From IMG/VR virus record IMGVR_UViG_3300025168_000039, positions 42,895 through 106,894 of that record: DNA of 64,000 bases. One strand, given 5' to 3'. Positions 433 through 58,863 of the stretch are shown one piece after another. The notes beneath the pieces are model-generated. The model worked only from the letters and a program-made list of their open reading frames with translations, searched no databases and was not told where the DNA came from. The position numbers and the translations under genes were made by a program. Source of the stretch: a virus. The stretch's first letter is position 1. The number at the start of each line of letters is the position of its first letter.

Positions 433-441
433 GATAAAATC

Positions 442-4169: not shown

Positions 4170-4172
4170 CAG

Positions 4173-4209
4173 TAAAAAATAAGCCCCTACGTTGACCATT
4201 GAGTAGGGG
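4173..4209 (-). terminator. Rho-independent terminator of the virion operon (unit A)
   Basis: CCCCTAC (4184-4190) and GTAGGGG (4203-4209) form a 7-bp stem. Read on the minus strand, the stem is followed by a T-rich tail (TTATTTTTTA) on its low-coordinate side. It lies ~95 bases past the last virion gene, between convergent operons. On the plus strand the stem lacks a T tract, so it should mainly stop leftward transcripts. Confidence 0.65.
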
Positions 4210-4304
4210 TGAAGACAGTCTCGGCTACCTACCCACCAGGAAGAACCCTAAGTTTACCAGTGATCCTTATACGGTCTTACAGAGCATTTACTAAAAAATA
4301 AGAC

Positions 4305-4466
4305 CTATCTTCCTCTACGACGGTTGGGACCGTTCCTTTTTTTAGGTTGAGGTTGTTTTCTTACAGGAGGGACCAGTGATTTCTTTAGATGCCATCCAAC
4401 TGCTACACCTCCAACATAAGATATTGCAATAAGAGTAAGGTATATTACAAATACAGTGACTGTCAT
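4305..4466 (-). CDS. Small single-span membrane protein with basic tail, 53 aa
   Basis: A short ORF one base after the stop of the 113-aa gene, so probably coupled to it. Residues ~3-25 form one hydrophobic helix (VTVFVIYLTLIAISYVGGVAV), followed by a strongly basic, proline-rich tail (KKRNGPNRRRGR). This shape fits a small lysis or membrane-remodelling protein encoded at the end of a virion operon, but no family is recognised. No equivalent is seen in unit B between 59937 and 60047. Confidence 0.6.
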   Translation of the reverse strand: MTVTVFVIYLTLIAISYVGGVAVGWHLKKSLVPPVRKQPQPKKRNGPNRRRGR

Positions 4467-4467
4467 T

Positions 4468-4809
4468 CTACTTCTCTACAAAAGGGTGGCGGCCATTATG
4501 CATTTTTTGTAATGCTGTAATTTCAGATTCTGTTTTTTTCAATCTTTCAGAAACAAAACCTCTCCATTTATTTTGCCCCTCTAAATTACTCGGACTTAAA
4601 ATATTAGACAAGACTTCTATCTGTTGTTGTAAAACTGCAACAACATTTTTAACACCATCAAACTTTCTGTTTAATTCATCAAAATATTTTCTTTGTTCGT
4701 CTTGTCTTTGTTTTAGAGATGACACTTGATTGCGAACCAATCCCCATGCACCAGCTAATGAAGCTATGACTGCCCCAATCTGGATCGCCATCCTTGCATC
4801 TAGTTCCAT
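4468..4809 (-). CDS. Membrane plus coiled-coil protein, holin/XhlA-like candidate (unit A)
   Basis: 113 aa with a hydrophobic N-terminal segment (residues ~9-25, IQIGAVIASLAGAW) followed by a long heptad-rich coiled coil and a basic, histidine-containing end (LQKMHNGRHP). The layout resembles small phage membrane proteins of lysis cassettes, or an inner-membrane spanin-like protein, but the family is not certain. Its start overlaps the stop of the internal virion protein gene by one base. The homologue at 60047-60403 conserves the central NKWRG-VSERLKKTE region, which argues for a fixed function next to the giant internal protein. Confidence 0.6.
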   Translation of the reverse strand: MELDARMAIQIGAVIASLAGAWGLVRNQVSSLKQRQDEQRKYFDELNRKFDGVKNVVAVLQQQIEVLSNILSPSNLEGQNKWRGFVSERLKKTESEITALQKMHNGRHPFVEK

Positions 4810-7800
4810 TATTTCTCTACCTCTACCAAAGGCTTCTGAATATATTCTACAAATATATTAGTTAACCCATCTTGTAATTTACTAGATAGTTCAGGGCTAA
4901 CCTGTCTATCTTCTAAAGCTTTAAATATACTCATATCCCCAATTAAATTATCAGGCATAAACACACCACTTTCTACACTGCTTGCGACATCTGCAATTAA
5001 TGGTAAAATTAATTCGTCGTTAGCAGTATACCAGAACTTATTTGTAGCTGCTTCTAAAACTCCACTTATACCTAATATTTTTGGCTTAGTTAAATCAGCT
5101 TCAGATTTACCTTTTGGTATTTCATAGTATTCAACATTTTTAAATTCATTAAGTCTCTTTGTAAATTTTTGCATACCTTTATATTTACGGTCTTGTAAAT
5201 TTTTATAGCTTTTTAAAAGCTGGTCTATATCTTCATTAGTTATTTCTCTTCTAGGAAGTTTTCTTACATCAGCTAAAAAATTATCTTTTGTTTTAGCTAT
5301 AGCTTTTAATCTACTAGACATGTCATAACCCATAGACTTTTGTACGTCTACGGTTATTGGTCGAATACCTGTCTTAACATAAAATTTTAAATCCGTAGAA
5401 CTTAATGGAAAGCCAGAAGCTCTTTGCCCCTGTCCTTCTCCTAAGAGTTCTTCTGAACTTACAGACTCCGCATATTGTCTAATAGCTTTAATAGTTCCTG
5501 GCTCTAAAAATTTTCCAATCTCCGTTAATGCTGATATAACTTTATCTTTAGTTGTGACACCTACTGCATCATCGTAAATTGGTTTACCTGTTTTCAGATT
5601 TGTTCCGCTTACAACATTAACTAATGCTTCTGTTAAAAACTTAGGAGATAGATATGCACCAGCAAGTCCCTTTGTTGCATTACCTACAGCATCATCTATT
5701 TCAGAGTCAGAAACAAATCCATTCTTCATTAACTTAGCTTGAAGCAAACGAAGAGGTGATTTAAGTACATCAAAAGTATCAGCAGATGTAGAGCCAATAT
5801 ACCTAGATGTTATTCTAGGGTCTGCTTGATTGTTATCTTTAACAAATGGTTGAAGCCAAAACTGTTTCGCACCCTTTGTCCAATCTGGAGATACAGCATT
5901 TACAAACTTTTTATTAGCTTCTGTTATTTGATAAGCATCTTCATTTTGACTAGCAACCATATCCCAACCACCAGCAACAACTCCGGCACCTGCGAATCTT
6001 CTTGCCCCATGTGCAATCAATGCAGGGTTTCCTGTTTTCGTTCCCTCCACTATGTCTTTCACACTAGTCTTTAAAATATTTTTAGTATTTCTTATTACCT
6101 CACTGGGAAACAATACATAGTTACCTATCAAAGGAGTCTTGGCTATTTCTCTAGCTAGTGGAGCAGCATCGCCATATGTAGGCATAGTCTCTCTAACATA
6201 TCTAGCAGCTCTTTCATCTAAATCATTATCATATATTTTTTTAGCTGCCTTACGTTTAATACTACGCTCTTTCATAATATTACTTATTGTTGGTCCTTCT
6301 TTAAATATCTTTTTTAAAGCTGCTCTTTCACTTTCATAAGCAACTAATTTTAGATAGGCATCAGGTTGACCATACAAAGAACCTAGCTTACTCATTGTTT
6401 TTCGATAAGCTTTGCTTACTGTGCCAGTGGCATTTTGCATTTGAGAAGCACCAGCCTTTATTAGTTCTCCAGTAACATCTTGCTCAATAACACCAAGCCT
6501 TCTTAGCTTTGCTAATTTTGCAACAGCTACAGGATTTTTTAAAGTAAGCTGATTTCCTAAAGTTCCTATTTCTTTTACTGCTGCTTTATAAGCAATCGGA
6601 TTTAAGAAGTGACCATTTGCAATAAGACTTTGAGTGCCACCAATAAGGTTTAGTGCATACGCAGGTAGATCAAGCAAAGTCTCTTTTGCCTGTGCTAGTG
6701 ATGCAGCATTAACCCAAATACTTCTAATTCTACCAGAGCTATTAAATAACTCAAGACCTTGATTAATAGCCCTACCCATCTCAGGACTTGTGTAGATATC
6801 TTTTAGTATTTGCCTTGAGTCACCTCCAAATTTTCCAATTGAATCTTTAGCAACTTGCTCTAAACCAAATTCAATATTTGGAGCAGAACCTTTTTGAAAG
6901 GTTGTTTTTACTGATGGTAATATAGGAAAGAAACCTTTTAAATCTACTTCTTTTCCTACATTTTCTCTAGCAAATTTTTCTACATCTTTTAAATATTTTA
7001 ATTCTGCTATTAATTTATTCTGTTGAATTAAACTAGTAGCAAGATTTTGTTTACCAGATTTATTTTGACCAAGCAAATCTAATACAGAATCATCTAAGTC
7101 TTGTTTTTTTCTTAAAACTTTTATAGTTGCGGGACGATATCCCTGTTGTGCAGTCCCACTAAATATTTTATCTATCAGAGGTCTATCCTCTTTAGACAAT
7201 CTATAAACCATGTTAGTAATAACACTATCAACATCAGCAGAATCAACTCCCTGCTTTTTTAAATATGATCTTGCGTTCTCTACCTTCGTAAGAAAAACAG
7301 GATCAGGAGATTTATCTAGAAGTGCCTTTTTAATTTCAGCATAATATTTAGGATTATTAGCAGATTGAAAAGTTCTAGATAAGTAGAAACCGTTTCGATC
7401 TCTATTAACTCCAATTTTTGCATTACCTGTTAATCCTAATTGAGTATTAATTAATGTTTCATTACTATTAATTTGTTTTTTAATATTATCTACTTGATCT
7501 AATACAGTATCAGGGATACCCCTTTCGACAAATGATTGTCTATTTTTAGCGCCAGAATTTATATATTCATTTAAAATATCTTCATCAACATCACTATCTT
7601 TAATTGATCGTTCTAAATCTTTTATCTGTTTTTTAATTTCAATTTCAGAACCAGCCTTTGACCTAGTTCTTTTTCTTGCAGCATCCGCTAAATCTTGCGA
7701 AAGATTAGCATCAGACCGTAATAGTTTTCCTGCAGCGGTATTTATTTTAGCAATCGGATCTTTTAATGGACGAAATAAGTTTCCTGCCCCAGTTTTTAAT

Positions 7801-9035
7801 CTAGCAATATTTTGCGTCGTAAAAAGTTTTTTAGCTCCAACTCCTATTGTTTTAAATGCCGCTGCACCAACAGCAGTGTCTGCTATCGCTCCAAAATATT
7901 TAAGAAGTTCGTCTTTTCTAGTAGTTGAATTTGGATTTACTCTAAACTTTTTAATTTCCTCTACTACAGATTCAGGTAAACTGTCTACCAATCCTAGATC
8001 AGCATTGGTTGCAAAGTCAATAAGTAGCCCTTGTTGTCCTTCGTTAAAATCTGTAATTTGTACAAAGCCTTGAACCACCCCTACGTTTGCACCACTAGCT
8101 TTTACTAATCTTTCTACTCTTTTAGAAAAATCTTTTCCTCTACGCTTTGCTATATAAGCAAGTCCTTTTCTAGCAAGTTTTGCGCCTATGCCAGCTATAG
8201 AAGCTAAAGCTATTAACTCGCTAACCATTTTCTCTTCATCGTTTAAATTAGGTTCTAATATTTCATTAACTTTTGCCACCGCTTTACCAAAAGGAGATTC
8301 TTTTAGTAGTTTAGCTGTTGCTGGATCTGTAATTGTTATTACAGACATTGCTATTTCACCGGGTGTTTTCCCTATTTCCAAAGCTGCTTTGCCGAAAATT
8401 CTTGCCGCTTGTCCTTGTCCATATACATTCATATAAATAGCTAAAAGTTTTCTTTCAGGTATTGTAAGAGATGCTGGGTCTTTCTTAGCTTTGTCCTGTA
8501 ATTTTTTTAGTAATTCAGTTCCTGCTTTACCTGCAACCTCAAGTGGTTTATTTTCTGTCTGCTCTGGAGTAGAGACTCCTTCTACTGAACCTTCTCCAGA
8601 TTTAATTGACTCTGAAAATATAATTCCAAATTCATTAGGCGTTTCTACTTCTGAAGAAACTCCAGCACCTTCTATTGGCACAGAGGTAGCCTCAACAGGA
8701 GGAGTAGCCTCAACAGGAGGAGTAGCCTGGACAGGGGGAGCCGTTTCAACAGGAGTAGATATAGATTGATCTACTGCTGAAATAAGTTCTTGAGGAGGAA
8801 CTTTTATAGGATTTGCTTTTATTAAAGGAACTTCAGGTTCTTTTACATCTACAGAAGGAGCTTCAGGTTCTTCTTTAGGTTTAAGCATATTAGAAGGAAC
8901 TTCTTTCCATTCCGCTCCGTTATATAAATACACCTGTCCTGTATCAGGATTTACTGCTTTTTCAGTTGGAATGTATTCTTTACCTTCCAACCTATGTCCC
9001 TCTCCATTATCTGGATTATAGGTTATTTCAGACAT
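4809..9035 (-). CDS. Giant internal virion (DNA ejection) protein, 1408 aa (unit A)
   Basis: A very large, mostly helical protein late in the virion operon, where short-tailed phages encode internal core/ejection proteins such as T7 gp16. The first ~170 residues are low-complexity, rich in Pro, Glu and Val, with a short repeat (ATPPVEATPPVEATS). The next region has amphipathic alanine-rich helices. The C-terminal third contains the SGFPLSSTDLKFYV block, which is also recognisable in unit B (RSSSGFPLRPSDKAARFL). No catalytic motif was recognised. Position and size suggest that it enters the host envelope with the DNA. The exact role is inferred. Confidence 0.65.
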   Translation of the reverse strand: MSEITYNPDNGEGHRLEGKEYIPTEKAVNPDTGQVYLYNGAEWKEVPSNMLKPKEEPEAPSVDVKEPEVPLIKANPIKVPPQELISAVDQSISTPVETAPPVQATPPVEATPPVEATSVPIEGAGVSSEVETPNEFGIIFSESIKSGEGSVEGVSTPEQTENKPLEVAGKAGTELLKKLQDKAKKDPASLTIPERKLLAIYMNVYGQGQAARIFGKAALEIGKTPGEIAMSVITITDPATAKLLKESPFGKAVAKVNEILEPNLNDEEKMVSELIALASIAGIGAKLARKGLAYIAKRRGKDFSKRVERLVKASGANVGVVQGFVQITDFNEGQQGLLIDFATNADLGLVDSLPESVVEEIKKFRVNPNSTTRKDELLKYFGAIADTAVGAAAFKTIGVGAKKLFTTQNIARLKTGAGNLFRPLKDPIAKINTAAGKLLRSDANLSQDLADAARKRTRSKAGSEIEIKKQIKDLERSIKDSDVDEDILNEYINSGAKNRQSFVERGIPDTVLDQVDNIKKQINSNETLINTQLGLTGNAKIGVNRDRNGFYLSRTFQSANNPKYYAEIKKALLDKSPDPVFLTKVENARSYLKKQGVDSADVDSVITNMVYRLSKEDRPLIDKIFSGTAQQGYRPATIKVLRKKQDLDDSVLDLLGQNKSGKQNLATSLIQQNKLIAELKYLKDVEKFARENVGKEVDLKGFFPILPSVKTTFQKGSAPNIEFGLEQVAKDSIGKFGGDSRQILKDIYTSPEMGRAINQGLELFNSSGRIRSIWVNAASLAQAKETLLDLPAYALNLIGGTQSLIANGHFLNPIAYKAAVKEIGTLGNQLTLKNPVAVAKLAKLRRLGVIEQDVTGELIKAGASQMQNATGTVSKAYRKTMSKLGSLYGQPDAYLKLVAYESERAALKKIFKEGPTISNIMKERSIKRKAAKKIYDNDLDERAARYVRETMPTYGDAAPLAREIAKTPLIGNYVLFPSEVIRNTKNILKTSVKDIVEGTKTGNPALIAHGARRFAGAGVVAGGWDMVASQNEDAYQITEANKKFVNAVSPDWTKGAKQFWLQPFVKDNNQADPRITSRYIGSTSADTFDVLKSPLRLLQAKLMKNGFVSDSEIDDAVGNATKGLAGAYLSPKFLTEALVNVVSGTNLKTGKPIYDDAVGVTTKDKVISALTEIGKFLEPGTIKAIRQYAESVSSEELLGEGQGQRASGFPLSSTDLKFYVKTGIRPITVDVQKSMGYDMSSRLKAIAKTKDNFLADVRKLPRREITNEDIDQLLKSYKNLQDRKYKGMQKFTKRLNEFKNVEYYEIPKGKSEADLTKPKILGISGVLEAATNKFWYTANDELILPLIADVASSVESGVFMPDNLIGDMSIFKALEDRQVSPELSSKLQDGLTNIFVEYIQKPLVEVEK

Positions 9036-33875: not shown

Positions 33876-36423
33876 TACTTAAGTCCTTTATAAGATTTGT
33901 AACAGTTTTCATGCTTTCCGATTCTATTTTTGTATCAGATGACATTTTATTTCCAGCTAATCTTGTAAGAAGTTCTGCAGCTTTATACGCATTATTATCG
34001 TCTAGCTTCTGTTCCTCTAAGGCTCCCTTCAATAAAGTCTCAATAGCTTTAATAGCATGGTCAGATTGATTCATCTCCATATCGGCTGCAAGTTTCTGTT
34101 GCTCCTTAGTGCCTTCTCCAATATACTTAATAACAATTTCATTCTCGTCAATATCTAATTCTCTATTTTTCAATGCAGCACTAGCAGCATCTTTAGCCAT
34201 CTGTGCTTGTAGCTTATCTCGTTCAACTTCAAGCTTCATAGTTTCAATTTGAACAAGCTGTTGTTCTGGTGTTGGTTGCATCATCTGTGGATTATTAGCT
34301 TGAAGAACTTGTTGTGCAGCTTGAGCCATAGCAAACTCAATCATATCTGATGTAATAGGCTGACCTTCTGGTACTTGATCTTTCATAGTTAGAGCAACAC
34401 CTTCAACCTGTTCCTTATACTTCATAACAGTATGTTCTTGAATATTAGCTTGTAGTACAGGAATAACTGATGCCATTAAAGGCTGACCACCACCCATAGG
34501 GTCTTGCATGAAAGACATCTTAACTTGAATATGTGCATCATGATTTTGGCCTGGAAAAGCTCCAATAGGTTTACCTTTAATTGCAACTTGAATATCTGAT
34601 AAAGGATCAAGAGGTTTAGGTTTTGTTTCAGGTGGAAGTATTAGATCAAGATTAGGCATGTTAGCTGCTTGGAGAATTGTTCTATTCAACTCTTCCATAT
34701 TAAACATACCAGGAGGAGCTTGTTGGGCTAACTGTAAAGCTAGCTGAGACAACATCATCCGATGAGCATTAGAAGGAATATTTGGGTCACTTACTGGGAC
34801 AATATCTACTCTTCCATCAAAATCTCTTTTTAGAACTTGTCGTGATACTCCCGGAACCTCAAATGGATATTCATTAGGCAGATAGTCATAATTAATCTGC
34901 GCTAATATTTTTAATTCTTCTCGTTGTGCGTTGTGAAGCCTTTTATGAATAGCTGAGAAAAATTTACTACTGGCTTCCAGCAGCGCCATCGTAGTACCTA
35001 CGGGACCATAAGAGGCGGCATCAGATACTACCTGTTCTGTTGAGTCAGCAAACTTCTGTCCAGCACCAATAACAAAATTGAGCATAGAAAGAAGAGTATT
35101 GGACGGCTCTTTATAAGGCAGCGGAACAATAGACTTAGATAAGTCCATTCCCGTTGCCTCAACTTCTTTAAACTCACCAGGAGATATCGGATCATTATCA
35201 CCAACAATTCTAACTCCTTTGGCTTTAAACCCTCCTGGCAGATTAGCAAATTGACCCGCATCCACTAACGCTCTCATAGCTGCCGTAGCAGTCATCGTTA
35301 GATTACCAAGGAAATGGATCAAGCCTAACCCATAGAAACCAAAGCCCGGAACATATTTGTAATGAACAAAGTGCATTACTTTTTGTCTTGTTTTATCGTC
35401 AGGTCTATAGTTTCTACGAATACTTAGAATTTGTTTTGATTGTTCTTCTAGTGTCACAATATAAGGAAGGGACACACCCTCTTCATGTTCAGAGTCTTCT
35501 GATAATTCAAGATAACAGTGCTGCTCTAGAAGAACATACTGATAATCAGAATCGGTTGTTTGAGCAAGACCTAAGACTGTATCTAACTTAGTTGCCATGG
35601 ATGATTGTTCAGGAACATAAGCTTCTGGTAAATCAATATCCCGATACATACCCACATCAATTTCCTTGATGAGGTCAGTTGGACTTCTATAAATTACATG
35701 AGTATATCTATCTGCTTTCCTTAGATTACTTGCATAGTATGATACATAGAATTGATCAATAGGAACAAACTCAGATACAGGACGCTCTAATGCAGCATCA
35801 TAATATGTTTTCTTAAAAGCGGAACCGATAATAGGTAGATGAAACAATAGCCGTTCTGATTCGTCAAAGTATTCCGGCATCTGTTCAGTTAGCTGATAGT
35901 TCATAAATTCTTGTACACGATTAGCCTGTTCCATCTTATCAGGAGTCTCGATACCTATTACTTGCGACTTAACTGGACCGGCTGCTGGAAATAATTCAAG
36001 CGAAGCCTTTGCCTGAAACTTAACGGCTGATTCAATAAGGAGAGGATGGACAGCGGTACAGGCTCCCTCAAAAGGTTCTGACGCATCTTGAAGCTTTAAT
36101 CCTAAAAGATCAAAGCCCCGTTCAAACATACTCTCCCATTCACTTCTAGAATCTCTATCAGATTCAAAGTTATCAAAAACTTTATTAGCTATTTCTTCTA
36201 GACCGTTATCGTCAACCTTATCTGCTAGGTCTTCAAACCATTCTTTAATATCTGGTTTAGCTTCTACCTCTATACCTTCTTCAAAATTTACAACTACCCC
36301 ACCGTCAGAATCAAGATCAAAACTTACATTATTTTCTATATCAATAGATGCACCATTACTTGTATCAAGCTCAATAATTTCTGCATCACCTTTTTGATCG
36401 AAGGGGTTTCGTTCAATCGCCAT
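33859..36423 (-). CDS. Portal protein, 854 aa
   Basis: The twelve-fold vertex through which DNA enters and leaves. Recognisable segments include AEPFEGACTAVHPLLIES-like motifs (residues ~115-130), QEFMNYQLTEQMPEYFDE, YRSPTDLIKEIDVGMY, FVHYKYVPGFGFYGLGLIHFL and, near the middle, SMLNFVIGAGQKFADSTEQV. The C-terminal part is Gln-rich helix (MAQAAQQVLQANNPQM). This matches the large P22/T7-like podovirus portals. It lies three genes downstream of the terminase large subunit. Its start overlaps the 52-aa gene stop by 11 bases. Confidence 0.85.
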   Translation of the reverse strand: MAIERNPFDQKGDAEIIELDTSNGASIDIENNVSFDLDSDGGVVVNFEEGIEVEAKPDIKEWFEDLADKVDDNGLEEIANKVFDNFESDRDSRSEWESMFERGFDLLGLKLQDASEPFEGACTAVHPLLIESAVKFQAKASLELFPAAGPVKSQVIGIETPDKMEQANRVQEFMNYQLTEQMPEYFDESERLLFHLPIIGSAFKKTYYDAALERPVSEFVPIDQFYVSYYASNLRKADRYTHVIYRSPTDLIKEIDVGMYRDIDLPEAYVPEQSSMATKLDTVLGLAQTTDSDYQYVLLEQHCYLELSEDSEHEEGVSLPYIVTLEEQSKQILSIRRNYRPDDKTRQKVMHFVHYKYVPGFGFYGLGLIHFLGNLTMTATAAMRALVDAGQFANLPGGFKAKGVRIVGDNDPISPGEFKEVEATGMDLSKSIVPLPYKEPSNTLLSMLNFVIGAGQKFADSTEQVVSDAASYGPVGTTMALLEASSKFFSAIHKRLHNAQREELKILAQINYDYLPNEYPFEVPGVSRQVLKRDFDGRVDIVPVSDPNIPSNAHRMMLSQLALQLAQQAPPGMFNMEELNRTILQAANMPNLDLILPPETKPKPLDPLSDIQVAIKGKPIGAFPGQNHDAHIQVKMSFMQDPMGGGQPLMASVIPVLQANIQEHTVMKYKEQVEGVALTMKDQVPEGQPITSDMIEFAMAQAAQQVLQANNPQMMQPTPEQQLVQIETMKLEVERDKLQAQMAKDAASAALKNRELDIDENEIVIKYIGEGTKEQQKLAADMEMNQSDHAIKAIETLLKGALEEQKLDDNNAYKAAELLTRLAGNKMSSDTKIESESMKTVTNLIKDLSNGKTN

Positions 36424-37041: not shown

Positions 37042-37070
37042 ATTATACCACTAAACTCTCCAGTATGCAA
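37042..37070 (-). promoter_or_regulatory. Internal late promoter for holin-like/portal genes
   Basis: On the minus strand TTGCAT (37070-37065), a 17-base spacer and TATAAT (37047-37042). The -35 box lies in the terminase coding end, 3' of which the holin-like gene starts at 37012. Confidence 0.7.
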
Positions 37071-38616
37071 CTTTCTTTTGTCTACGGGGATTTACATCAT
37101 CTTCCCAGCTAGGATCATCTGGATGAGTTAGATGCCATGACTCTTTCATGTAATGCACAGCCATAGCTAAAGCATCTACCTGATCATCATGTCTACCGTT
37201 AGGAAAACTTAGTAGTTCTTCAATCAGATCATCTGCCCATTTTTTATTCTTCGGTATCCACAAGCGTCCCGCTTCTAACACCGGAGTTGCTGCGTATACT
37301 CTAGCTACCTTGTCTCTATCTGGTGTGTACTCTAGAATAGGCAAACCACCTCGTCGTAAATCTTGTATCAGTGATTGACCACTAGCTTTCTTTTCCACAA
37401 TACAAATATCAGGTCTATACTCTTCATGTAGATTTTGAGCTATCTTTCGGAGATCAGGATATTCAAATCTTCCTCTGGTATTTCCTAGTAGAATAAGATT
37501 ACTAGCAATATACTCTTCTCCTTCGTAGCTTTCTTCGGGCATCTGAAAGATACCCCATGTTTGAATAACGGAGAAGTCAGCACTACTCTTTGTCGAGAAG
37601 GCTGTATCTAATGTTTGAATAACAAAGTCACAGGTGGGAGGATCATCATATTCCCATCTTTGTATCCATCTCTTTTTTATTATTCCACCTTCTTCTGGTG
37701 TAGGATTCTGCATATACAATGAATCCCAGTACCTTGACCCATTACTTGCAATGATCTCTTCTTCATCAACTCGTAATACTTCATCAGGTTTCCACTCAGG
37801 AAAGTAAGAACTTCCTACAGGTAAGTCCAGAAGCTTTGATGCTTCTTCATCTATCCATGCAGGAATACGAACTACCTCCCATTTATGAGTGGCTTCCATA
37901 TCCATTACTTCTTGTTGTTTTAATAACCAACCACAAAGATCATCATGGTGGTATCGGGTATTCACAATTACAATAGACCCGTTAGGCATGATACGAGTAC
38001 GCAAACCTGCAGGATACCATTCCTTAATATACCGCCTACCCGCTTCAGAGAAACTATCTTCCTCTGACATAGCATCATCTAGTATTGCTATATGTGCTCC
38101 TCGTCCCGCAATCTGTGATCTAACACCAGCAGCATAGTAGGTTCCATTAAGATTTGTTTTCCATTTACCTGCCGCCCGTACATCCTGCCGTATTTGAACA
38201 TTAGGAAATATATTTTGAAACTGATCAGTGTTTACTACATCTCGAACTGATCTACCAAAGTCACTAGCTAACTGATCACTATGAGATATAGACATAATCT
38301 CATGTGTAGGATTATTACCTATATACCATGCTGGGAATATCTTGGAGCATATGACAGACTTGGAAGAGCGAGGAGGAAGAAAGATCATAAGTCTTTTAAT
38401 CTCTCCGTCCTTTACTCTCTGAAGTTTATCAGAAAGTAGCTTTATGTGTCTACCCATCTTCCAATCAGACACAAGAGTAGGAGCAACCATACGGACAAAG
38501 GACAAAAAGCTATCCTGTGATTCCTTTAAAACAAGATCATCCATTAATGTACTTAATGTCATCAATGTATTTACAGGATTTTCTTGATCCTTTATGTATT
38601 CTTCATTAATCTCCAT
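37051..38616 (-). CDS. Terminase large subunit, 521 aa
   Basis: The packaging motor ATPase and nuclease. A Walker A-like loop LPPRSSKS lies at residues 80-87 and Walker B IAILDD at 176-181, followed by EED. The coupling region (TRYHHDDLCGWLL) and the C-terminal RNase H-like nuclease (QTLDTAFSTK and later HDDQVDALAMAVHYM) complete the pattern. It begins the leftward virion operon from the promoter at 38762-38790. The matching small subunit lies ~33 kb away in coordinates on the plus strand, at the end of the early arm. Confidence 0.93.
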   Translation of the reverse strand: MEINEEYIKDQENPVNTLMTLSTLMDDLVLKESQDSFLSFVRMVAPTLVSDWKMGRHIKLLSDKLQRVKDGEIKRLMIFLPPRSSKSVICSKIFPAWYIGNNPTHEIMSISHSDQLASDFGRSVRDVVNTDQFQNIFPNVQIRQDVRAAGKWKTNLNGTYYAAGVRSQIAGRGAHIAILDDAMSEEDSFSEAGRRYIKEWYPAGLRTRIMPNGSIVIVNTRYHHDDLCGWLLKQQEVMDMEATHKWEVVRIPAWIDEEASKLLDLPVGSSYFPEWKPDEVLRVDEEEIIASNGSRYWDSLYMQNPTPEEGGIIKKRWIQRWEYDDPPTCDFVIQTLDTAFSTKSSADFSVIQTWGIFQMPEESYEGEEYIASNLILLGNTRGRFEYPDLRKIAQNLHEEYRPDICIVEKKASGQSLIQDLRRGGLPILEYTPDRDKVARVYAATPVLEAGRLWIPKNKKWADDLIEELLSFPNGRHDDQVDALAMAVHYMKESWHLTHPDDPSWEDDVNPRRQKKVAYWRV

Positions 38617-38632
38617 AGATACTCTTTAGTAT

Positions 38633-38653
38633 CTCTATAGAGTCTCTATAGAG
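38633..38653. repeat. Twin 10-bp palindromes CTCTATAGAG
   Basis: CTCTATAGAG occurs at 38633-38642 and again at 38644-38653, each a perfect palindrome and separated by one base. They lie in the leader of the terminase large subunit transcript, just before its start codon. They share their core with palindromes at 38748-38761 and 38931-38956. Confidence 0.75.
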
Positions 38654-38677
38654 ATAACATAAAACCTTTTAAAAATT

Positions 38678-38718
38678 ATTATTAATAATAAACATTATAA
38701 CAATTATTAATAATAAAC
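38678..38718. repeat. 16-bp direct repeats in AT-rich tract
   Basis: ATTATTAATAATAAAC is present at 38678-38693 and 38703-38718, a 25-base period. The surrounding ~90 bases are almost pure A+T. Iteron-like spacing and easy melting make this a candidate origin element, but only two copies are seen. Confidence 0.7.
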
Positions 38719-38747
38719 GATAATAATAACTAATAACTGTTTGTTCG

Positions 38748-38761
38748 AATCTCTAGAGATT
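38748..38761. promoter_or_regulatory. Palindrome at the late transcription start, operator-like
   Basis: AATCTCTAGAGATT (38748-38761) is a perfect 14-bp palindrome that abuts the -10 box of the late promoter and covers the expected start site. A protein bound here would block or time the virion operon. Related palindromes flank it on both sides. Confidence 0.55.
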
Positions 38762-38790
38762 ATTATACAGGAGTATATAGATTCTGTCAA
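38762..38790 (-). promoter_or_regulatory. Main late promoter (perfect sigma70 consensus)
   Basis: On the minus strand TTGACA (38790-38785), a 17-base spacer and TATAAT (38767-38762). Both boxes and the spacing are ideal for a host sigma70-type polymerase. It precedes the terminase large subunit by ~140 bases and no phage RNA polymerase gene is present in the window. Confidence 0.85.
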
Positions 38791-38930
38791 GGCTCCCGCC
38801 TAAAATAATTAGGTTTAAATCATCATAATTTTATATAGATGAAATGACCCTCTTATTTTTGGTAAGTATATGGGGGGAGGGGTATATATATTATATAGCT
38901 GAGTCAATTTTTTTGGTGGGGGGTCGTATA

Positions 38931-38956
38931 TTAAATAATCTCTATAGATTATTTAA
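38931..38956. repeat. Perfect inverted repeat TTAAATAATCT / AGATTATTTAA
   Basis: Eleven-base arms (38931-38941 and 38946-38956) around CTAT. The centre reads ATCTCTATAGAT, similar to the other palindromes in this region. It could be a hairpin in RNA or an operator in DNA. Confidence 0.7.
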
Positions 38957-38960
38957 AGAC

Positions 38961-39003
38961 ATGTGACATATCTGCAACACCCCCATGCGAATATGTGACA
39001 TAT
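38961..39003. repeat. Direct repeats ATGTGACATAT
   Basis: Two 11-base copies at 38961-38971 and 38993-39003, separated by a GC-richer spacer (CTGCAACACCCCCATGCGA). ATGTGACATAT is itself nearly palindromic (ATGTcACAT-like), which is consistent with a dimeric regulator site. Confidence 0.6.
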
Positions 39004-39016
39004 ACATCACATCCAG

Positions 39017-39056
39017 GAAGATTCTTACAGAATCTATGAAGATTCTTACAGAATCT
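39017..39056. repeat. Tandem hairpins AGATTCTTACAGAATCT
   Basis: GAAGATTCTTACAGAATCT occurs twice in tandem (39017-39035, 39038-39056). Each contains a perfect 7-bp inverted repeat AGATTCT/AGAATCT around TAC. Two identical hairpins in series could act in the early leader RNA or as protein sites. Confidence 0.75.
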
Positions 39057-39177
39057 TTGGAGATAAAAAGAAATATCACCTTGCAAGGTTTTATTTTTTA
39101 TATTTAGAGAGATCAAAGTGATCTCTAAAGATAAAAAATAATATTAGATATCAACCGACTAACTACCAAACCCTGAC

Positions 39178-39195
39178 TGTTGCAGTAATGCAACA
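39178..39195 (+). repeat. Hairpin TGTTGCA-GTAA-TGCAACA
   Basis: Perfect 7-bp stem with a GTAA tetraloop (GNRA type in RNA), in the early leader ~130 bases ahead of the first small gene. A structured leader element is likely; its function is not clear. Confidence 0.6.
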
Positions 39196-39229
39196 ACTGA
39201 TGAGATTCGAATAAACTTTGATGAAGTTC

Positions 39230-39259
39230 TTGACAGTCTATGATGAAACTAATTAATAA
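39230..39259 (+). promoter_or_regulatory. Probable early promoter
   Basis: TTGACA (39230-39235) with TAATAA (39254-39259) after 18 bases. The -35 box is exact and the -10 box weak. The -10 region overlaps the left arm of the first intergenic hairpin (39250-39301), so promoter and hairpin may interact. Confidence 0.5.
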
Positions 39260-39301
39260 TCTATCTAGTGAGTTCTTACGAACTAGCTAGATGATTAATT
39301 A
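39250..39301 (+). repeat. Intergenic hairpin family, member 1
   Basis: Left arm TAATTAATAATCTATCTAGT pairs with right arm ACTAGCTAGATGATTAATTA around loop GAGTTCTTACGA, ~18 of 20 positions matching. The outer part TAATTAAT-ATC/GAT-ATTAATTA is shared with members 2, 4 and, with changes, 3 and 5; the inner core differs but still pairs. It precedes the first early small gene. Confidence 0.85.
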
Positions 39302-39322
39302 AAACTTAATTGGAGCAACCTG

Positions 39323-39490
39323 ATGACCAATATTCAATCCCTCAATTTCTATTTCTCCGAGCTAGACATGGAAGTATCTTCCTTCAATGGAGGTTATGAC
39401 CTCCACAATACAATTACCGGAGACCACATCACAACTTGTGATGATCTATGTGAAGCTGAGTATTTTCTATCTGCCATCCGTCAAAACTAA
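39323..39490 (+). CDS. Early small protein, 55 aa
   Basis: The first gene of the early arm, with TTGGAG upstream of the ATG. The product (NIQSLNFYFSELDMEVSSFN, then GGYDLHNTITGDHITTCDD) is acidic and soluble with two cysteines. Its stop codon TAA is the first triplet of hairpin 2. No family is recognised; early small proteins of this sort often act on host functions, which is inference. Confidence 0.62.
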   Translation: MTNIQSLNFYFSELDMEVSSFNGGYDLHNTITGDHITTCDDLCEAEYFLSAIRQN

Positions 39491-39539
39491 TTAATAATCT
39501 ACTACTTAGCTTTCTTTGAAAGCAGTAGATGATTAATTA
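39488..39539 (+). repeat. Intergenic hairpin family, member 2
   Basis: Arms TAATTAATAATCTACT and AGTAGATGATTAATTA pair with one mismatch, with an inner hairpin GCTTTC-TTT-GAAAGC. Its first three bases are the stop codon of the preceding gene. Confidence 0.85.
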
Positions 39540-39557
39540 AATAACTGGAAAATGATT

Positions 39558-39731
39558 ATGAAAATCCAAATGAATATGCGTTCTGACTATGGTCAGTACC
39601 GTTACTATCCAGCTTGTGACAAATCAAAGCTCTTAACAGAGCTTACAAATCAAAAGACGTTAACACCTGCCAATATGAGAACTATACAGAAACTCGGCAT
39701 CGAAGTTGAAATGCTAAGTCACAAACTGTAA
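39558..39731 (+). CDS. Early small basic protein, 57 aa
   Basis: The ATG at 39558 (GGA eight bases before) is favoured; an in-frame ATG at 39552 is too near that site. The protein (KIQMNMRSDYGQYRYYPACD, later TPANMRTIQKLGIEVEMLS) is mildly basic with no membrane segment. It stands alone between hairpins 2 and 3. No family is recognised. Confidence 0.62.
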   Translation: MKIQMNMRSDYGQYRYYPACDKSKLLTELTNQKTLTPANMRTIQKLGIEVEMLSHKL

Positions 39732-39734
39732 GGG

Positions 39735-39787
39735 TAATTAAATATATTCTGGTAGACTATCTTAGGATACCAGAATATTATTAATTA
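39735..39787 (+). repeat. Intergenic hairpin family, member 3
   Basis: TAATTAAATATATTCTGGTA pairs with TACCAGAATATTATTAATTA around loop GACTATCTTAGGA. It has a different inner core from its relatives with intact pairing, and begins three bases after the preceding stop. Confidence 0.85.
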
Positions 39788-39822
39788 TCTTTTAACCAAC
39801 CGCCAACCGATAGGAGATTATC

Positions 39823-40041
39823 ATGGCAAAACGTACCGAGAAGATTACCCAAGCTTTCCGCAAAACCCGTTGGGTTAAGTTGAAAGAAGGCTATGAAGTT
39901 TATAAACAAGCCGTCGAAGACGGCCTACCAATCCGAGTAGTTCACCCTTCCGGTTCTTTTAAAGTTATAAAGAACACCGAGAACCTTCCGAAGGAAGAAG
40001 GTCTTAGATTTAAAGCTGGGGAAGTCGAGGCGGTAGCCTAA
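39823..40041 (+). CDS. Early small basic protein, 72 aa
   Basis: Preceded by AGGAG. Basic N-terminus (AKRTEKITQAFRKTRWVKL), strand-rich middle (DGLPIRVVHPSGSFKVIKN), acidic end (KEEGLRFKAGEVEAVA). No helix-turn-helix or membrane segment is apparent. It lies between hairpins 3 and 4 and so would be an isolated cistron if the hairpins are processed. The GC content appears a little higher than in its neighbours. Confidence 0.65.
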   Translation: MAKRTEKITQAFRKTRWVKLKEGYEVYKQAVEDGLPIRVVHPSGSFKVIKNTENLPKEEGLRFKAGEVEAVA

Positions 40042-40048
40042 CCTCGGG

Positions 40049-40099
40049 TAATTAATAATCCCCTAGTAGACTATAAGGATACTAGGGGATGATTAATTA
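40049..40099 (+). repeat. Intergenic hairpin family, member 4
   Basis: TAATTAATAATCCCCTAGTA pairs with TACTAGGGGATGATTAATTA around loop GACTATAAGGA; only one position is unpaired (A opposite G), the same position as in members 1 and 2. It is the most stable looking core (CCCC/GGGG). Confidence 0.88.
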
Positions 40100-40135
40100 T
40101 CTGAGACATTAATAACTTGATTAATGGAGATTATT

Positions 40136-40291
40136 ATGACTATTCCAGATGATATGAACGTACCCTTAAATCGTAGAGATTTAAGTAAACCGGAGAATAT
40201 TCGTTGGCTAGTTCGTAATCTAGCAGTCAAAAACAGGGAACATCCTAGCTTTAATAAAATAATCAAAGAGTTAATAAATAGGAGTAAATAA
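40136..40291 (+). CDS. Early small protein, 51 aa
   Basis: ATGGAG lies upstream of the start. Sequence MTIPDDMNVPLNRRDLSKPE followed by NIRWLVRNLAVKNREHPSFN; basic C-terminus. It resembles a compact helical DNA-binding or adaptor protein, but this is a guess. The next small gene starts four bases after its stop. Confidence 0.55.
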   Translation: MTIPDDMNVPLNRRDLSKPENIRWLVRNLAVKNREHPSFNKIIKELINRSK

Positions 40292-40295
40292 TATT

Positions 40296-40385
40296 ATGAC
40301 TTTCCCAATTGTGGTATCGACAATACTATTTATTGTATTCGTGGGAATAGCATATATACTATACAAAGATATTAAAAAACTTTAG
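40296..40385 (+). CDS. Tiny membrane protein, 29 aa
   Basis: MTFPIVVSTILFIVFVGIAY is almost one complete transmembrane helix, then YKDIKKL. GGAG at 40281 is its likely ribosome site, 11 bases upstream. Small membrane peptides are common in early phage regions, but the length leaves some doubt. Confidence 0.42.
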   Translation: MTFPIVVSTILFIVFVGIAYILYKDIKKL

Positions 40386-40439
40386 GGTTACGCTAGGCAT
40401 ACACTCAATATCTGAATACTTTTTAAATGGAGTTTAAAA

Positions 40440-40607
40440 ATGAGTTTAGAGAAAGATGCGGAAAAATATGTGAAGGCTTTAAATAGTCCCGCAAATGGTT
40501 GGGGACAGTACATCATTAATGGTGAGCAGAGCCATGTATTCTTAGGTAAAATGTTTGAACAATATGGACAAGATGAAGTTAATAACTTTCTAGATAAGGA
40601 TAATTAA
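40440..40607 (+). CDS. Early small acidic protein, 55 aa
   Basis: TGGAG upstream of the ATG. The product (SLEKDAEKYVKALNSPANGW, then FLGKMFEQYGQDEVNNFLDK) is helical and acidic. Its stop is two bases before the 233-aa gene, suggesting joint translation. No family is recognised. Confidence 0.6.
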   Translation: MSLEKDAEKYVKALNSPANGWGQYIINGEQSHVFLGKMFEQYGQDEVNNFLDKDN

Positions 40608-40609
40608 GC

Positions 40610-41311
40610 ATGTCCACACTATCCCCAGACCATAATGCTATTGTTAATAGCACTACTTTGTACCAGAAAAATATACATGAAGTTGATAGTTATCCACATA
40701 AAGTTATTAAAGCAAGCACCAATAAGAAGCTTGGCCGAAAAGTATTACGAGGTAAACTAAACGGCTATCCAATGTATACATTGACTTTAGTGGAAAGAGA
40801 GACTTGCACTAATGCTTGTGAGCATTGGGCTGATTGCTATGGGAACAATATGCCATTCGGTCATAGATTTAAAACTAAAGGACTAATGCCAAGGCTCAAG
40901 TTAGAGCTTGATGCTTTAGATAAAAAGCATCCCAATGGATACCTTGTTAGGCTGCACATTCTAGGGGACTTTTACAGTGTTCTATATGTAAAGTTTTGGG
41001 AAACCCAGCTACATAATAGACCGGCTTTAAATATCTATGGATATTCCCGTCATCACTATGGCTCTACTAATACCAGCAAACCATCAAGAAATATTGGACA
41101 AGCTTTGCTTGATCTGAGGGATAACATAGGCTTTGAAAGATTTGCTGTACGATTTAGCTCTCTGCCTTCCGATACCTTATCGGCCAATACAGAACACAAC
41201 TCGACAGCTAATGCTATTACTTGTCTAGTACAAGTAGATAAGAGTGATAGTTGTGGTGACTGTACACTGTGCTGGACTACTAAAAAACCTATTACTTTTC
41301 TTGATCACTAA
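40610..41311 (+). CDS. GP88-like cysteine-containing protein, 233 aa
   Basis: Cysteines in ETCTNACEHWADCYGNNMPF and a distal DSCGDCTLCW cluster suggest metal or Fe-S binding. The ETC-NAC-CYG pattern and the following RFKTKGL, LHILGDFYSVLYVKFWETQL and YGYSRH segments resemble the uncharacterised phage GP88-type family, a family assignment from memory. No catalytic function is known. It lies amid small early genes on the plus strand. No signal peptide. Confidence 0.5.
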   Translation: MSTLSPDHNAIVNSTTLYQKNIHEVDSYPHKVIKASTNKKLGRKVLRGKLNGYPMYTLTLVERETCTNACEHWADCYGNNMPFGHRFKTKGLMPRLKLELDALDKKHPNGYLVRLHILGDFYSVLYVKFWETQLHNRPALNIYGYSRHHYGSTNTSKPSRNIGQALLDLRDNIGFERFAVRFSSLPSDTLSANTEHNSTANAITCLVQVDKSDSCGDCTLCWTTKKPITFLDH

Positions 41312-41391
41312 TGCTTTAATAAGGAAAAATTATGGTTAAATTAAATCCTGCTTATATTATTACTGTTGTTTCTTGTTAGGAATATAAAACT

Positions 41392-41538
41392 ATGACAAAA
41401 TATACCGAATTAGAACTGAGAGAAGTCATGTTCTACATGGATTTTAAAACAGTTTTAGAGGCTAGGGAATATATGGAAAACAATGACGCTGAATTATCCA
41501 TTCAAAACGAAACGGAATTTCGCCCCGGTAACATGTAA
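41392..41538 (+). CDS. Early small protein, 48 aa
   Basis: MTKYTELELREVMFYMDFKT, then helical VLEAREYMENNDAELSI and a polar end. Soluble and acidic. TAGGAATATAAAACT precedes its ATG; the same GGAATATAAAACT precedes the next gene's ATG at 41568, suggesting a duplicated leader. No family is recognised. Confidence 0.55.
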   Translation: MTKYTELELREVMFYMDFKTVLEAREYMENNDAELSIQNETEFRPGNM

Positions 41539-41567
41539 CCACATACTTTTAAAGGGAATATAAAACT

Positions 41568-41690
41568 ATGATAAATGTAATTATAAAAGCTACACTTTTA
41601 ACTTTTCTTTTAGGAGCAGGTATATTATATTTCGATATGATCTTTAGCACTTCGAATACCCTGTTAACCAATATTAATTATTCTAAGTAG
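41568..41690 (+). CDS. Tiny membrane protein, 40 aa
   Basis: Hydrophobic segment NVIIKATLLTFLLGAGILYF (residues ~3-22) then a polar tail that ends inside the left arm of hairpin 5. GGGAATATAAAACT precedes the ATG. It could be a small membrane or exported peptide. The shared stop with the hairpin arm is similar to member 2. Confidence 0.5.
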   Translation: MINVIIKATLLTFLLGAGILYFDMIFSTSNTLLTNINYSK

Positions 41691-41722
41691 AGTTATCTTA
41701 CGATACTTAGAATGATTAATAT
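41671..41722 (+). repeat. Intergenic hairpin family, member 5
   Basis: ATATTAATTATTCTAAGTA pairs with TACTTAGAATGATTAATAT around loop GAGTTATCTTACGA, which is almost the loop of member 1 (GAGTTCTTACGA). The position unpaired in the others is a potential G-U pair here. Confidence 0.85.
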
Positions 41723-55814: not shown

Positions 55815-56576
55815 ATGTTAGATAAACCATACAAGATATATGTAGGGTATGACGAAAAAGAAAAGACTTACTTTGATGTTCTGTCCTACAGCATAAGAAA
55901 AAATACAAACCATCCCGTAGATATAATCCCACTAAAGCAAAATGCACTACGAAGAGCAGGTCTTTACTTTAGAGGAAAAGAAATAAACGAAGACAATCAA
56001 TTTGTAGATTGTTTTGATGGTAAACCTTTCTCAACTGAATTTAGTTTCACTAGGTTTTTAGTTCCTTTCTTAAATCAATTTGAAGGGTACGCTTTATTTA
56101 TGGACTGCGATATGTTTGTGAAGACAGACATATCTGAATTGTTTGATGAGTATTGTAATCCTTCCTTTGCTGTTAGTTGTGTGAAACATGATCACGTTAC
56201 CGACGGTGGTTTAAAAATGGACAACCGTGTTCAGTCTAATTATCAGAGAAAGAACTGGTCTAGTTTTGTTATGTGGAACTGTGGACATGAAGCACTAAAA
56301 GATTTTACTGTCCATGATGTAAACACAAGGAATGGTTCTTGGTTACATAGGTTTGCTTTTCTTGAGAGGGAGTATGAGAATAATCTTATAGGGTCTATAC
56401 CTCAAGAGTGGAACTGGTTAGATGGACATTCCCCTGCTAACTCAAAACCTAAGTGTGTCCACTTTACTACAGGCGGCCCGATATACAGCAACTGGGATGG
56501 TCGAAGAACCATAGATAATAAATATGCTATGGAGTGGTCAGAATTATATTCAGAAATGGTTAAAGTAAATGGTTAG
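55815..56576 (+). CDS. GT8-like glycosyltransferase (unit B)
   Basis: 253 aa, homologue of 648-1445. GYALFMDCDMF carries DCD at residues 97-99 (DxD-type motif); PFSTEFSFTRFL and WNWLDGHS are conserved. Overlaps the next gene by 8 bases, the same arrangement as in unit A, which suggests joint expression with the three-domain enzyme. No membrane segment. The acceptor is unknown. Confidence 0.8.
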   Translation: MLDKPYKIYVGYDEKEKTYFDVLSYSIRKNTNHPVDIIPLKQNALRRAGLYFRGKEINEDNQFVDCFDGKPFSTEFSFTRFLVPFLNQFEGYALFMDCDMFVKTDISELFDEYCNPSFAVSCVKHDHVTDGGLKMDNRVQSNYQRKNWSSFVMWNCGHEALKDFTVHDVNTRNGSWLHRFAFLEREYENNLIGSIPQEWNWLDGHSPANSKPKCVHFTTGGPIYSNWDGRRTIDNKYAMEWSELYSEMVKVNG

Positions 56577-58863
56577 ATTTGTAACATCCTTTTCAGGTAA
56601 ACACTACGACATATATGCAAAAAAAATGTTGGAGTCTGTCGTTGAACACTGGGCAGATGACTTAAAACTTATTGTTTATTATGACACTGTAACTGAAGAA
56701 CAGAAGAAAGACTTTCCTAAGTCACCTATTATTGAATACAGAGACTTAGATGAGGTTGAAGACAGAGCTATCTTCTTAGATAAGATGAAAGGCTGTGATG
56801 GTACATCTAACGGTCAGATGCCTTACAACTTTCGTATGGATGCTCTACGCTTCTGTCACAAAGTATACGCTCTCACAGACTACTTTCTTGAGGTATCAGA
56901 GAACGAAGCCAAGGGTGGCTGGCTTATATGGATGGACGCAGATGTACTGACCACATCCCCTTTGTCTGAAGAAATTTTGTTCCAGGCTTTTCCTAAAGAT
57001 TCAGAGTTAATACATTTAGGAAGAACAGATATTGATTTTAGTGAGACAGGGTTTATTGGTTTTAATCTAGATACAATGCACAGTCATTACTTCTTAGCTG
57101 ACATAAGAGGATGCTACGATATAGGCGAAGTGTTGGCCTATCGAGAGTGGACTGATGCTTTTATTATGACTAGGTTCATTAAGATATATGCAGCGCATGG
57201 CATGAAGGTTCATAATTTAAGTGAAGGTGCTTCTGGTCTAGCTGTTTTCCCTCAGTCTAAGCTAGCTGACTTTATGATTCACTACAAAGGTAATTTAAAA
57301 AACACTATAGATGACGACACCGTTACTCCTGATGTAAGTCTACCTCGTTATCATCAGTTAGCTGTTCTTATCAGAGAGTATAAACCTAAAAGAATTGTAG
57401 AGGTAGGGACTTGGAATGGAGGCAGAGCTATAGAAATGGCCTTGGCTGCTTTCGAGAACAGTAAGCGAGTACACTATACTGGTTTTGACTTATTTGAAGA
57501 CGCAACCTTTGAGATAGATCGTAAGGAACAAAACGTCAAACCTCATAATAATTTTGATGCAGTAAAGAAACGTCTTGAAGACTTTGCTGGTAAGATGAAA
57601 GAGGATAAGAAGACGTTCACCTTTACTTTATTAAAAGGTGATTCAAAAGAAACTATGCCTAAGGCAAAGAAAGAGTTAAAGAAGGCTGACTTTGCTTTTA
57701 TAGATGGTGGTCATAGTGAAGAAACTATTTTATCTGATTATGAAAATTTAATACATGTTCCTGTAGTAGTCTTAGATGATTACTATAGTAAGGATATAGA
57801 TGATAAAATTCCTGGTGATGATTTTCTAGGAACTAACCGTCTTGTAGAATCAATGGAGAAGACAAGGATATTTGTCTTGCCTTCTCAAGATAGAGTGAAG
57901 GATGGTGGTACTGTTCACTTGGCCGTTAGGTTAAAAACAGATGACCTTCCTAACCTACCTAAAGAATTAAGTAGAACACCTATTATAATTCAACCTAAAG
58001 ATTGCGTACCTAAAGACGATATACTGGACAACATAAACGATAACGTAGAGTTAATAAAAGATTGGGACTTTGTTCAAAACTGTGACGTTAATAATGAACA
58101 TGTAATTGTAGCATCCGCTGGTCCTTCTATGGACTTTGAAGAATTAAAAGCTGTTCAGAAAAAATATGATGCTAAAATAGTGTGTGTGAAACATAGTTAT
58201 CCTTTACTCTTGGAGGCTGGTATTCAGCCTTGGGCGTGTGTTATACTTGACCCTCGCCCAATAACTGGTACTAGTACACACGGTGTTGTGCGAACAGAGT
58301 TGTTTAAAGAGATTGATCCAGTTACTAAATTCTTTATTGCGTCTATGACTGACCCTAGTGTTACTAAGTTCATACTGGATAAGACAAAGAATGTATATGG
58401 GTGGCACGCTTTCTCTCAAGCTGTTGCTGATATAGTAAGCGGTAAGATTGAGATAGACTATAATTTAAAAATAGACAAGGAAAACGCTACGTTTGTTAGC
58501 GGTGGTACATGTGCGGCAATGCGGTCAATTGGTATGATGCACATATTTGGATTTAGGAACTTCCATCTGTTTGGTTTTGATTGTTCAATAGAAGGTCTTT
58601 CTGATGAACAGAAAAAAGAGAAACTAGATGATGGTGTAAGACCTAAATATATGCCAGTAGAAATAAGCGACTGTCATTTCTGGACTACTGGCGAACTTCT
58701 TGCAATGGCACAAGATTGTGAGAAGTTATTTGATAATCCTCAAGTTGAAATGATGGTCAATTTTTATGGAGAGAATACATTAGTATCTGAGGTTTACAAA
58801 CTTTCTAAGAGAAGTAATCCAACACACTACACTAAATATATAGAAGAGAAACAAGCAACCTAA
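56569..58863 (+). CDS. Three-domain glycan enzyme: glycosyltransferase, SAM methyltransferase, DUF115 (unit B)
   Basis: 764 aa, same domain order as 1438-3762. A WMDAD motif in the first third, EVGTWNGGRAIEM and FIDGGHSEE in the methyltransferase part, and ASAGPSMDFEELKAVQ, CVILDPRPITGTSTHGVV, SGGTCAAMRSIG and FHLFGFDCS in the DUF115 part. Here the glycine loop reads AGPSMD, the standard DUF115 form (unit A has GGGSTD). The GC pair with the GMD/ColD genes is on the same strand ~7 kb upstream, so the sugar donor may be shared. Confidence 0.82.
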   Translation: MVRFVTSFSGKHYDIYAKKMLESVVEHWADDLKLIVYYDTVTEEQKKDFPKSPIIEYRDLDEVEDRAIFLDKMKGCDGTSNGQMPYNFRMDALRFCHKVYALTDYFLEVSENEAKGGWLIWMDADVLTTSPLSEEILFQAFPKDSELIHLGRTDIDFSETGFIGFNLDTMHSHYFLADIRGCYDIGEVLAYREWTDAFIMTRFIKIYAAHGMKVHNLSEGASGLAVFPQSKLADFMIHYKGNLKNTIDDDTVTPDVSLPRYHQLAVLIREYKPKRIVEVGTWNGGRAIEMALAAFENSKRVHYTGFDLFEDATFEIDRKEQNVKPHNNFDAVKKRLEDFAGKMKEDKKTFTFTLLKGDSKETMPKAKKELKKADFAFIDGGHSEETILSDYENLIHVPVVVLDDYYSKDIDDKIPGDDFLGTNRLVESMEKTRIFVLPSQDRVKDGGTVHLAVRLKTDDLPNLPKELSRTPIIIQPKDCVPKDDILDNINDNVELIKDWDFVQNCDVNNEHVIVASAGPSMDFEELKAVQKKYDAKIVCVKHSYPLLLEAGIQPWACVILDPRPITGTSTHGVVRTELFKEIDPVTKFFIASMTDPSVTKFILDKTKNVYGWHAFSQAVADIVSGKIEIDYNLKIDKENATFVSGGTCAAMRSIGMMHIFGFRNFHLFGFDCSIEGLSDEQKKEKLDDGVRPKYMPVEISDCHFWTTGELLAMAQDCEKLFDNPQVEMMVNFYGENTLVSEVYKLSKRSNPTHYTKYIEEKQAT

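Follow-up and report, generated by a model that had tools for sequence, protein, structure and literature searches.

The window examined here is a 64,000-nucleotide stretch of virus DNA (positions 42,895 to 106,894 of IMG/VR record IMGVR_UViG_3300025168_000039, a record of 106,894 bases that we call G000), and its subject is an array of five related hairpins at 39250-41722. The array marks the start of a rightward early region, opposite a leftward operon of terminase and structural genes, and gene order suggests that the early region is transcribed as a single polycistron. The large terminase of the window phage is approximately 40% identical to the terminases of pelagiphages HTVC023P and HTVC027P. 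A reading of the DNA letters alone (the original prediction) had proposed a family of five matching hairpins at this site, and all five were confirmed at their coordinates by sequence inspection, by folding and by a covariance model, R1, built from 43 members. Each hairpin folds better than its dinucleotide shuffles (z from -4.8 to -7.8; 0/200 shuffles equally stable), and R1 detects 5/5 with E between 1e-11 and 3e-4, hairpins 1, 3, 4 and 5 having been included in its training set and hairpin 2 left out. As detailed below, the hairpins are intercistronic RNA cis-elements that lie in transcript sense in early transcripts of uncultured marine phages.

A member of the family is about 50 nt long and comprises an AU-rich outer helix of 6-8 bp, an interruption that is often A.G, a variable 11-bp helix and an apex. 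The apex consists of a tandem GA/GA internal loop, a covarying apical helix of 2-3 bp and a terminal loop of 3-6 nt; the segments first described as loops are not open but contain these three parts. Four of the five window hairpins belong to this apex class, and hairpin 2 differs in its apex with outer arms alike (Table 1). The non-Watson-Crick pair noticed at one arm position in four members was borne out as pair 9 from the base, A.G in three hairpins and U.G in hairpin 5. Hairpin 3 has instead a 2x2 mismatch (A.A, U.U) at pairs 8-9, together with an 11-bp upper helix. The proposal that all five share their outer arms holds in part: hairpin 2 shares these arms, and only these, whereas the arms of hairpin 5 are ATATTAAT.

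Table 1. Hairpins, candidate promoter element and ORFs of the early array (window coordinates)
Feature	Position	Strand	Description
TTGACA candidate -35	39230-39235	+	tentative early promoter; poor -10-like hexamer in 5' arm of hairpin 1
Hairpin 1	39250-39301	+	arms 39250-39269 / 39282-39301; GA 39270-39271 and GA 39280-39281 (tandem GA), apical GT/AC, loop TCTT; A.G at pair 9; R1 48 bits; fold z -5.8
ORF, 55 aa	39323-39490	+	after hairpin 1; stop TAA is first triplet of hairpin 2
Hairpin 2	39488-39539	+	second apex class, outer arm like hairpin 1; ACTTA 5-nt 5' bulge, GCTTTC/GAAAGC, TTT loop; A.G at pair 9; R1 33.5 bits though untrained
ORF, 59 aa	39552-39731	+	after hairpin 2
Hairpin 3	39735-39787	+	GA 39755-39756 and 39766-39767, apical CTA/TAG, loop TCT; R1 65.9 bits
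ORF, 72 aa	39823-40041	+	after hairpin 3
Hairpin 4	40049-40099	+	GA 40069-40070 and 40078-40079, apical CT/AG, loop ATA; A.G at pair 9; R1 63.1 bits
ORF, 51 aa	40136-40291	+	after hairpin 4
Hairpin 5	41671-41722	+	GA 41690-41691 and 41702-41703, apical GT/AC, loop TATCTT; U.G at pair 9; R1 49.7 bits; fold z -7.8
ORF, 65 aa	41754-41951	+	after hairpin 5; Shine-Dalgarno TTGGAG ahead of 41754; in-frame upstream ATG at 41712

Covariation across the family is extensive. In an alignment of 88 distinct rows, pairing was kept in 97.2% of cells versus 67.8% after shuffling, double changes numbered 541 versus 152, and the covariation score was 0.728 versus 0.180, with slid-partner controls at or below 0.11; this alignment was fitted to the covariance model and is hence biased towards it, and ungapped raw sequences agree. 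Because the pattern searches used exact cores, apex conservation was in part selected for; no such selection applied to the flanking helices or to the variant apices recovered by a free descriptor scan. Stems that change sequence yet keep pairing indicate that it is the folded RNA that matters. With covariation this far above both kinds of control, the selection on structure argued for originally is substantiated, and we hold with high confidence that the family is a selected RNA structure.

Apical helices vary among GU/AC, CU/AG, AC/GU, UU/AA, AU/AU and GC/GC and loops differ in both length and sequence, with GA/GA unchanged; the GA pairs are presumably sheared. A loose dinucleotide scan also ranked GA/GA first, barely above AA/AA and others, and is not relied on here. 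Of 98 distinct hairpins, 40 have their first unpaired position at a distance of exactly 11 bp from GA/GA, and in 28 of these 40 it is A.G. Since 11 bp corresponds to one turn of A-form RNA, the interruption and the apex would point to the same side of the helix. An alternative common apex, a GUUC-UUAC-GAAC tetraloop with a 5' bulge, is the minimum free energy fold of hairpin 1, whose sequence recurs identically at many loci. This alternative was ruled out as the family structure, as CUAUAAG, ACUUUAGU, GUAUAAC and UUACUUAA members are unable to form it and retain GA/GA and a paired apical helix. It may occur as a slipped state in the GUUCUUAC type. The hairpin 2 apex recurs on other outer helices (L008:3684-3735, L045:12353-12414, G015:18695-18740 and L049), and this second class, with its ACTTA bulge and GCTTTC-TTT-GAAAGC stem-loop, is probably a sister hairpin family. 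A further, very long hairpin (~25 bp with a GAA bulge) was seen at L042:12110-12174, L061:9878-9943, L088:4797-4862 and relatives; its apex varies from GTTC/GAAC to GTCAC/GTGAC, and it mostly adjoins a shorter hairpin with a TTTTA loop.

The family extends well beyond the window. In three pattern scans, viral contigs yielded 52, 67 and 100 stretches, and matches to the core GTAGAGTATCTTRCGATAC were nearly all flanked by complementary arms although the search pattern places no condition on the arms. With R1, 170 matches were aligned (150 and 20 from two locus sets) from 79 IMG/VR sources, 47 of which hold at least two; some sources overlap the same contig, making the true contig count somewhat lower. 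All 170 matches fall on a single strand within each source. Hairpins were present in 18 of 23 virus records searched whole, with clustering in early or replication regions in those inspected closely. Relatives that share a neighbouring 233-aa gene carry similar hairpins with other stems, and a sixth copy lies in the window's own record outside the window (bases 35,020-35,069), just upstream of a second primase-like gene. The family was thus found in related phages, where its absence had been named as grounds for dismissing it as chance duplication. Carriers, all metagenomic, include at least two terminase types (phrog_38 and phrog_979). Pattern scans of 84,980 GTDB genomes gave 0 matches for one core and, for the other, seven chance matches devoid of complementary flanks; BLAST against named phages gave chance-level matches only; and R1 had no match in T7 positions 1-8000 and six named marine phages (298 kb in all). 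No Rfam release 15 family fits the hairpins, chance-level scores being far below every gathering threshold, and literature searches on intergenic or intercistronic phage hairpins and on pelagiphage stem-loops retrieved no description of the family. Collectively, these data define a large, previously uncatalogued family in uncultured ocean phages.

Position relative to genes is as consistent as the fold. In 112 of 133 distinct cases a same-strand Shine-Dalgarno sequence and start codon follow within 66 nt (median 21.5 nt); on the opposite strand this is so in 15 of 133. The preceding stop codon mostly falls in the 5' arm or lies no more than about 10 nt from the hairpin. The downstream proteins form 51 clusters. 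The family of the 55-aa ORF comprises 21 genes behind 13 distinct hairpins and that of the 72-aa ORF 20 genes, likewise behind 13; primase/helicase genes are also among the orthologs that retain an upstream hairpin. Because these orthologous genes keep hairpins whose stems differ entirely, position and fold are conserved while the stem sequence turns over. Identical hairpins also occur next to different genes. The 72-aa early protein is conserved across carriers and recurs as the terminal part of a 202-aa protein of L170; PHROG and Pfam searches with it returned no match, and its AlphaFold model is a small beta-beta-alpha-beta-beta fold (pLDDT 72.7).

A location between tiny early genes, as first proposed, is accurate for the window and too narrow for its relatives, where hairpins also precede a primase/helicase gene and non-coding RNAs. 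Approximately 23 of 120 hairpins (17 preceded by a gene, 6 not) lack a start codon in the next 70 nt, and non-coding stretches of 150-200 nt with strong predicted folds come after several of them. One group of such RNAs, about 150 nt long, shows 10 pairs with compensatory double changes among four aligned sequences. Its members (L096:6256-6406 and L138:1534-1684 on the minus strand; L132:6371-6516 and L146:3802-3952 on the plus strand) lie directly or shortly after a family hairpin; their terminal helix is long, and they contain a GGGUUCGAUUCCC hairpin that resembles a T-arm. Hairpins that precede non-coding RNAs suggest a separator of RNA units in general and weaken a purely translational role. 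Downstream of other hairpins, L096:3690-3837 and L144:1184-1383 (both minus strand) resemble transfer RNA (tRNA) or transfer-messenger RNA (tmRNA), with an acceptor-like closing stem, a T-arm GGGUUCGAUUCCC (GUUCGAUUC in L144) and an ACC-like 3' end. The L096 RNA is similar to tmRNA models at scores below threshold. Annotation of these downstream RNAs as tRNA or tmRNA was rejected, ARAGORN having called no gene at those places and Rfam scores being below threshold. At the position of hairpin 4, relative L005 holds a different hairpin, then an extra non-coding segment of about 200 nt (L005:5489-5703, with a CACCA end and a long closing stem), then the same gene, which in the window follows the hairpin directly.

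Among the three roles originally suggested for the hairpins, RNA processing site, repressor target and mobile element, processing fits best. We favor, at somewhat less than an even chance, a function as transcript separator or processing site. The outer duplex of about 20 bp would be weakened at a site one turn of the helix beneath an apex of specific shape, and an endoribonuclease, for which host RNase III is the simplest candidate, could cut near the interruption. Each early unit, whether ORF or structured non-coding RNA, would then become a separate RNA carrying a terminal hairpin. Such a hairpin might also shield the next ribosome-binding site against upstream pairing, with the tandem GA apex serving recognition, positioning or end protection. 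A precedent exists in phage T7, whose early polycistron is cleaved by host RNase III at five sites (PMC4858673), among them R1.1, a 60-nt hairpin with an internal loop between genes 1.0 and 1.1 (PMC6121014). Like the T7 sites, which are early intercistronic hairpins of about 50-60 nt with a long interrupted duplex in transcript sense, the family lies between cistrons of an early polycistron, as judged from gene order, with a long duplex of about two turns; like R1.1, it stacks two helices parted by an interruption.

Several observations weigh against cleavage of this kind. The family differs from the T7 sites in that 11 bp separate its A.G interruption from a tandem GA/GA apex that is conserved, whereas the internal loop of R1.1 is asymmetric (4/5 nt) and offers no single A.G (PMC6121014). 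Homology to the T7 sites is not indicated by R1, which finds nothing in the T7 early region (positions 1-8000) up to E = 10. Moreover, the interruption is missing or placed elsewhere in many family members. A specific apex is, to our knowledge, not a requirement of RNase III, and conservation of GA/GA therefore points to a reader of greater specificity. The window's virus record has no match to the RNase III profile PF14622, which means that a host enzyme would be needed. The profile of T7-like RNA polymerase (PF00940) also had no match in the record, but because its control matched nowhere either, this negative carries no information. That host RNase III specifically does the cutting is a doubtful proposition. 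More speculative still, and in our estimate improbable, is a parsing code in which a specific nuclease or regulator reads the tandem-GA hairpins and cuts or marks the transcript into tiny ORFs and structured, partly tRNA-like RNAs, the stems being kept different within a genome against mispairing or recombination of neighboring copies.

The main rival to processing is an operator, in which a protein of phage or host origin binds the tandem-GA apex and governs translation or stability, so that early and replication genes form a regulon by virtue of a shared hairpin. We regard this as plausible, if well short of probable. Conservation of GA/GA and of the 11-bp register amid drifting stems is what recognition of shape by a protein should produce, and both the location immediately ahead of the Shine-Dalgarno sequence and the retention of hairpins by orthologous genes, including primase/helicase, would suit translational control. 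However, the hairpins do not overlap the Shine-Dalgarno sequence, the start-less copies described above include several that precede non-coding RNAs, and a comparison of carrier genes gave no candidate binding protein. That comparison, in which a gene shared only by carriers was sought as the reader, yielded mainly replication genes and small proteins of unknown function. A passive insulator or stabilizer, which would free the next ribosome-binding site, protect ends or block exonucleases with no dedicated cleavage or binder, is unlikely. In its favor, the hairpins are stable (mean -24.0 kcal/mol, sd 3.9, 94 contexts), and accessibility of the Shine-Dalgarno and start region is 0.50 with native arms versus 0.46 with shuffled arms (p = 1e-4), a small but significant gain that fits an insulating side effect. 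Yet a gain of just 0.04 is slight, and insulation requires neither a conserved GA/GA apex nor an 11-bp spacing.

Readings at the level of transcription or DNA fare less well. Stable stems between genes could in principle be terminators or attenuators that lack a U-tract, a possibility we consider very remote: none of the five is followed by a T-run, the outer stems are AT-rich, a terminator scan picks up none of them, and the genes immediately downstream have no obvious promoters of their own. This agrees with the original view that they are not ordinary terminators. The closest phage counterparts are the PeSLs of T4-like phages, described in PMC4503421 (citing Arbiol 2010 and Comeau 2014) as repeated early intergenic stem-loops linked to gene shuffling. 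The family resembles them in being repeated, intergenic and early. In that account PeSLs are composite promoter-terminator motifs, whereas our hairpins mostly have no nearby promoter and never a terminator tail. Exact TTGACA occurs 19-24 nt upstream, a promoter-like distance, in 10 of 102 non-redundant hairpin contexts. With up to one mismatch at -26 to -17, there are 15 sites where shuffled sequences give 5.5 on average and 12 at most, and the best -10 hexamers match at only 3-5 of 6 positions. A promoter-hairpin composite thus applies at best to first-in-array copies. For these copies the weak TTGACA signal suggests that early transcription may begin within the 5' arm, leaving the hairpin at the RNA 5' end, a lead only because the -10 hexamers are poor. 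With promoter association confined to first copies and the U-tract missing, both terminators and PeSLs are the wrong class.

A DNA-level element (a cruciform or single-strand recombination site, a repeat resembling a miniature inverted-repeat transposable element (MITE), or a PeSL-like linker for module shuffling) would account for the same hairpin beside different genes, for outer arms that are partly palindromic as DNA, and for successive near-identical hairpins in L005, where the hairpin 3 sequence occurs twice in a manner suggestive of local copying. We nonetheless judge it quite unlikely. Promoter association is not general, and transcript-sense orientation is strict. The place before orthologous genes, fixed between stop codon and Shine-Dalgarno sequence, is held despite different stems. 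The GTDB matches are chance cores. The MITE-like element suggested originally is disfavored on these same grounds, given orthologous positions that persist as stems diverge, a single strand per source rather than orientation-independent dispersal, and no copy found outside the phage pool. Comparison of the window with L005 reveals a replaced hairpin and an insertion after the hairpin, and no clean hairpin insertion.

Other known RNA motifs offer partial likeness. The Rfam motifs manA, wcaG and PhotoRC are also structured marine phage RNAs, and none matches the hairpins. Kink-turns are defined by a 3-nt bulge beside tandem GA pairs. The family shares with them and with other tandem-GA motifs the G.A/A.G pairs between two helices; it differs in that its internal loop is symmetric and the 3-nt bulge absent. 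The hairpins constitute a structure that is widespread in uncultured marine phages and lacks an Rfam model; the searches of cultured phages and sequenced bacterial genomes did not turn it up. The covariance model can now locate early regions together with the small ORFs and non-coding RNAs between hairpins. If the processing interpretation is true, transcript cutting in the style of T7 extends to a large group of ocean phages with a new and more specific recognition structure; if the hairpins are operators, they define a phage-wide post-transcriptional regulon.

Two further features of the setting were observed. Many phage genes of G000 occur in two divergent copies, including two terminases, two DNA polymerases and paired structural genes (for example, G000:21579-23198 and window 37051-38616; window 1438-3762 and 56569-58863). 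Because of this duplication, the record may represent two related phage genomes of about 54 kb merged during assembly. The leader at 38600-39250 is rich in additional inverted repeats (38609-38655, 38676-38716 and 39087-39145) and contains, on the minus strand at 38790-38762, a perfect TTGACA-17-TATAAT promoter directed at the structural operon.

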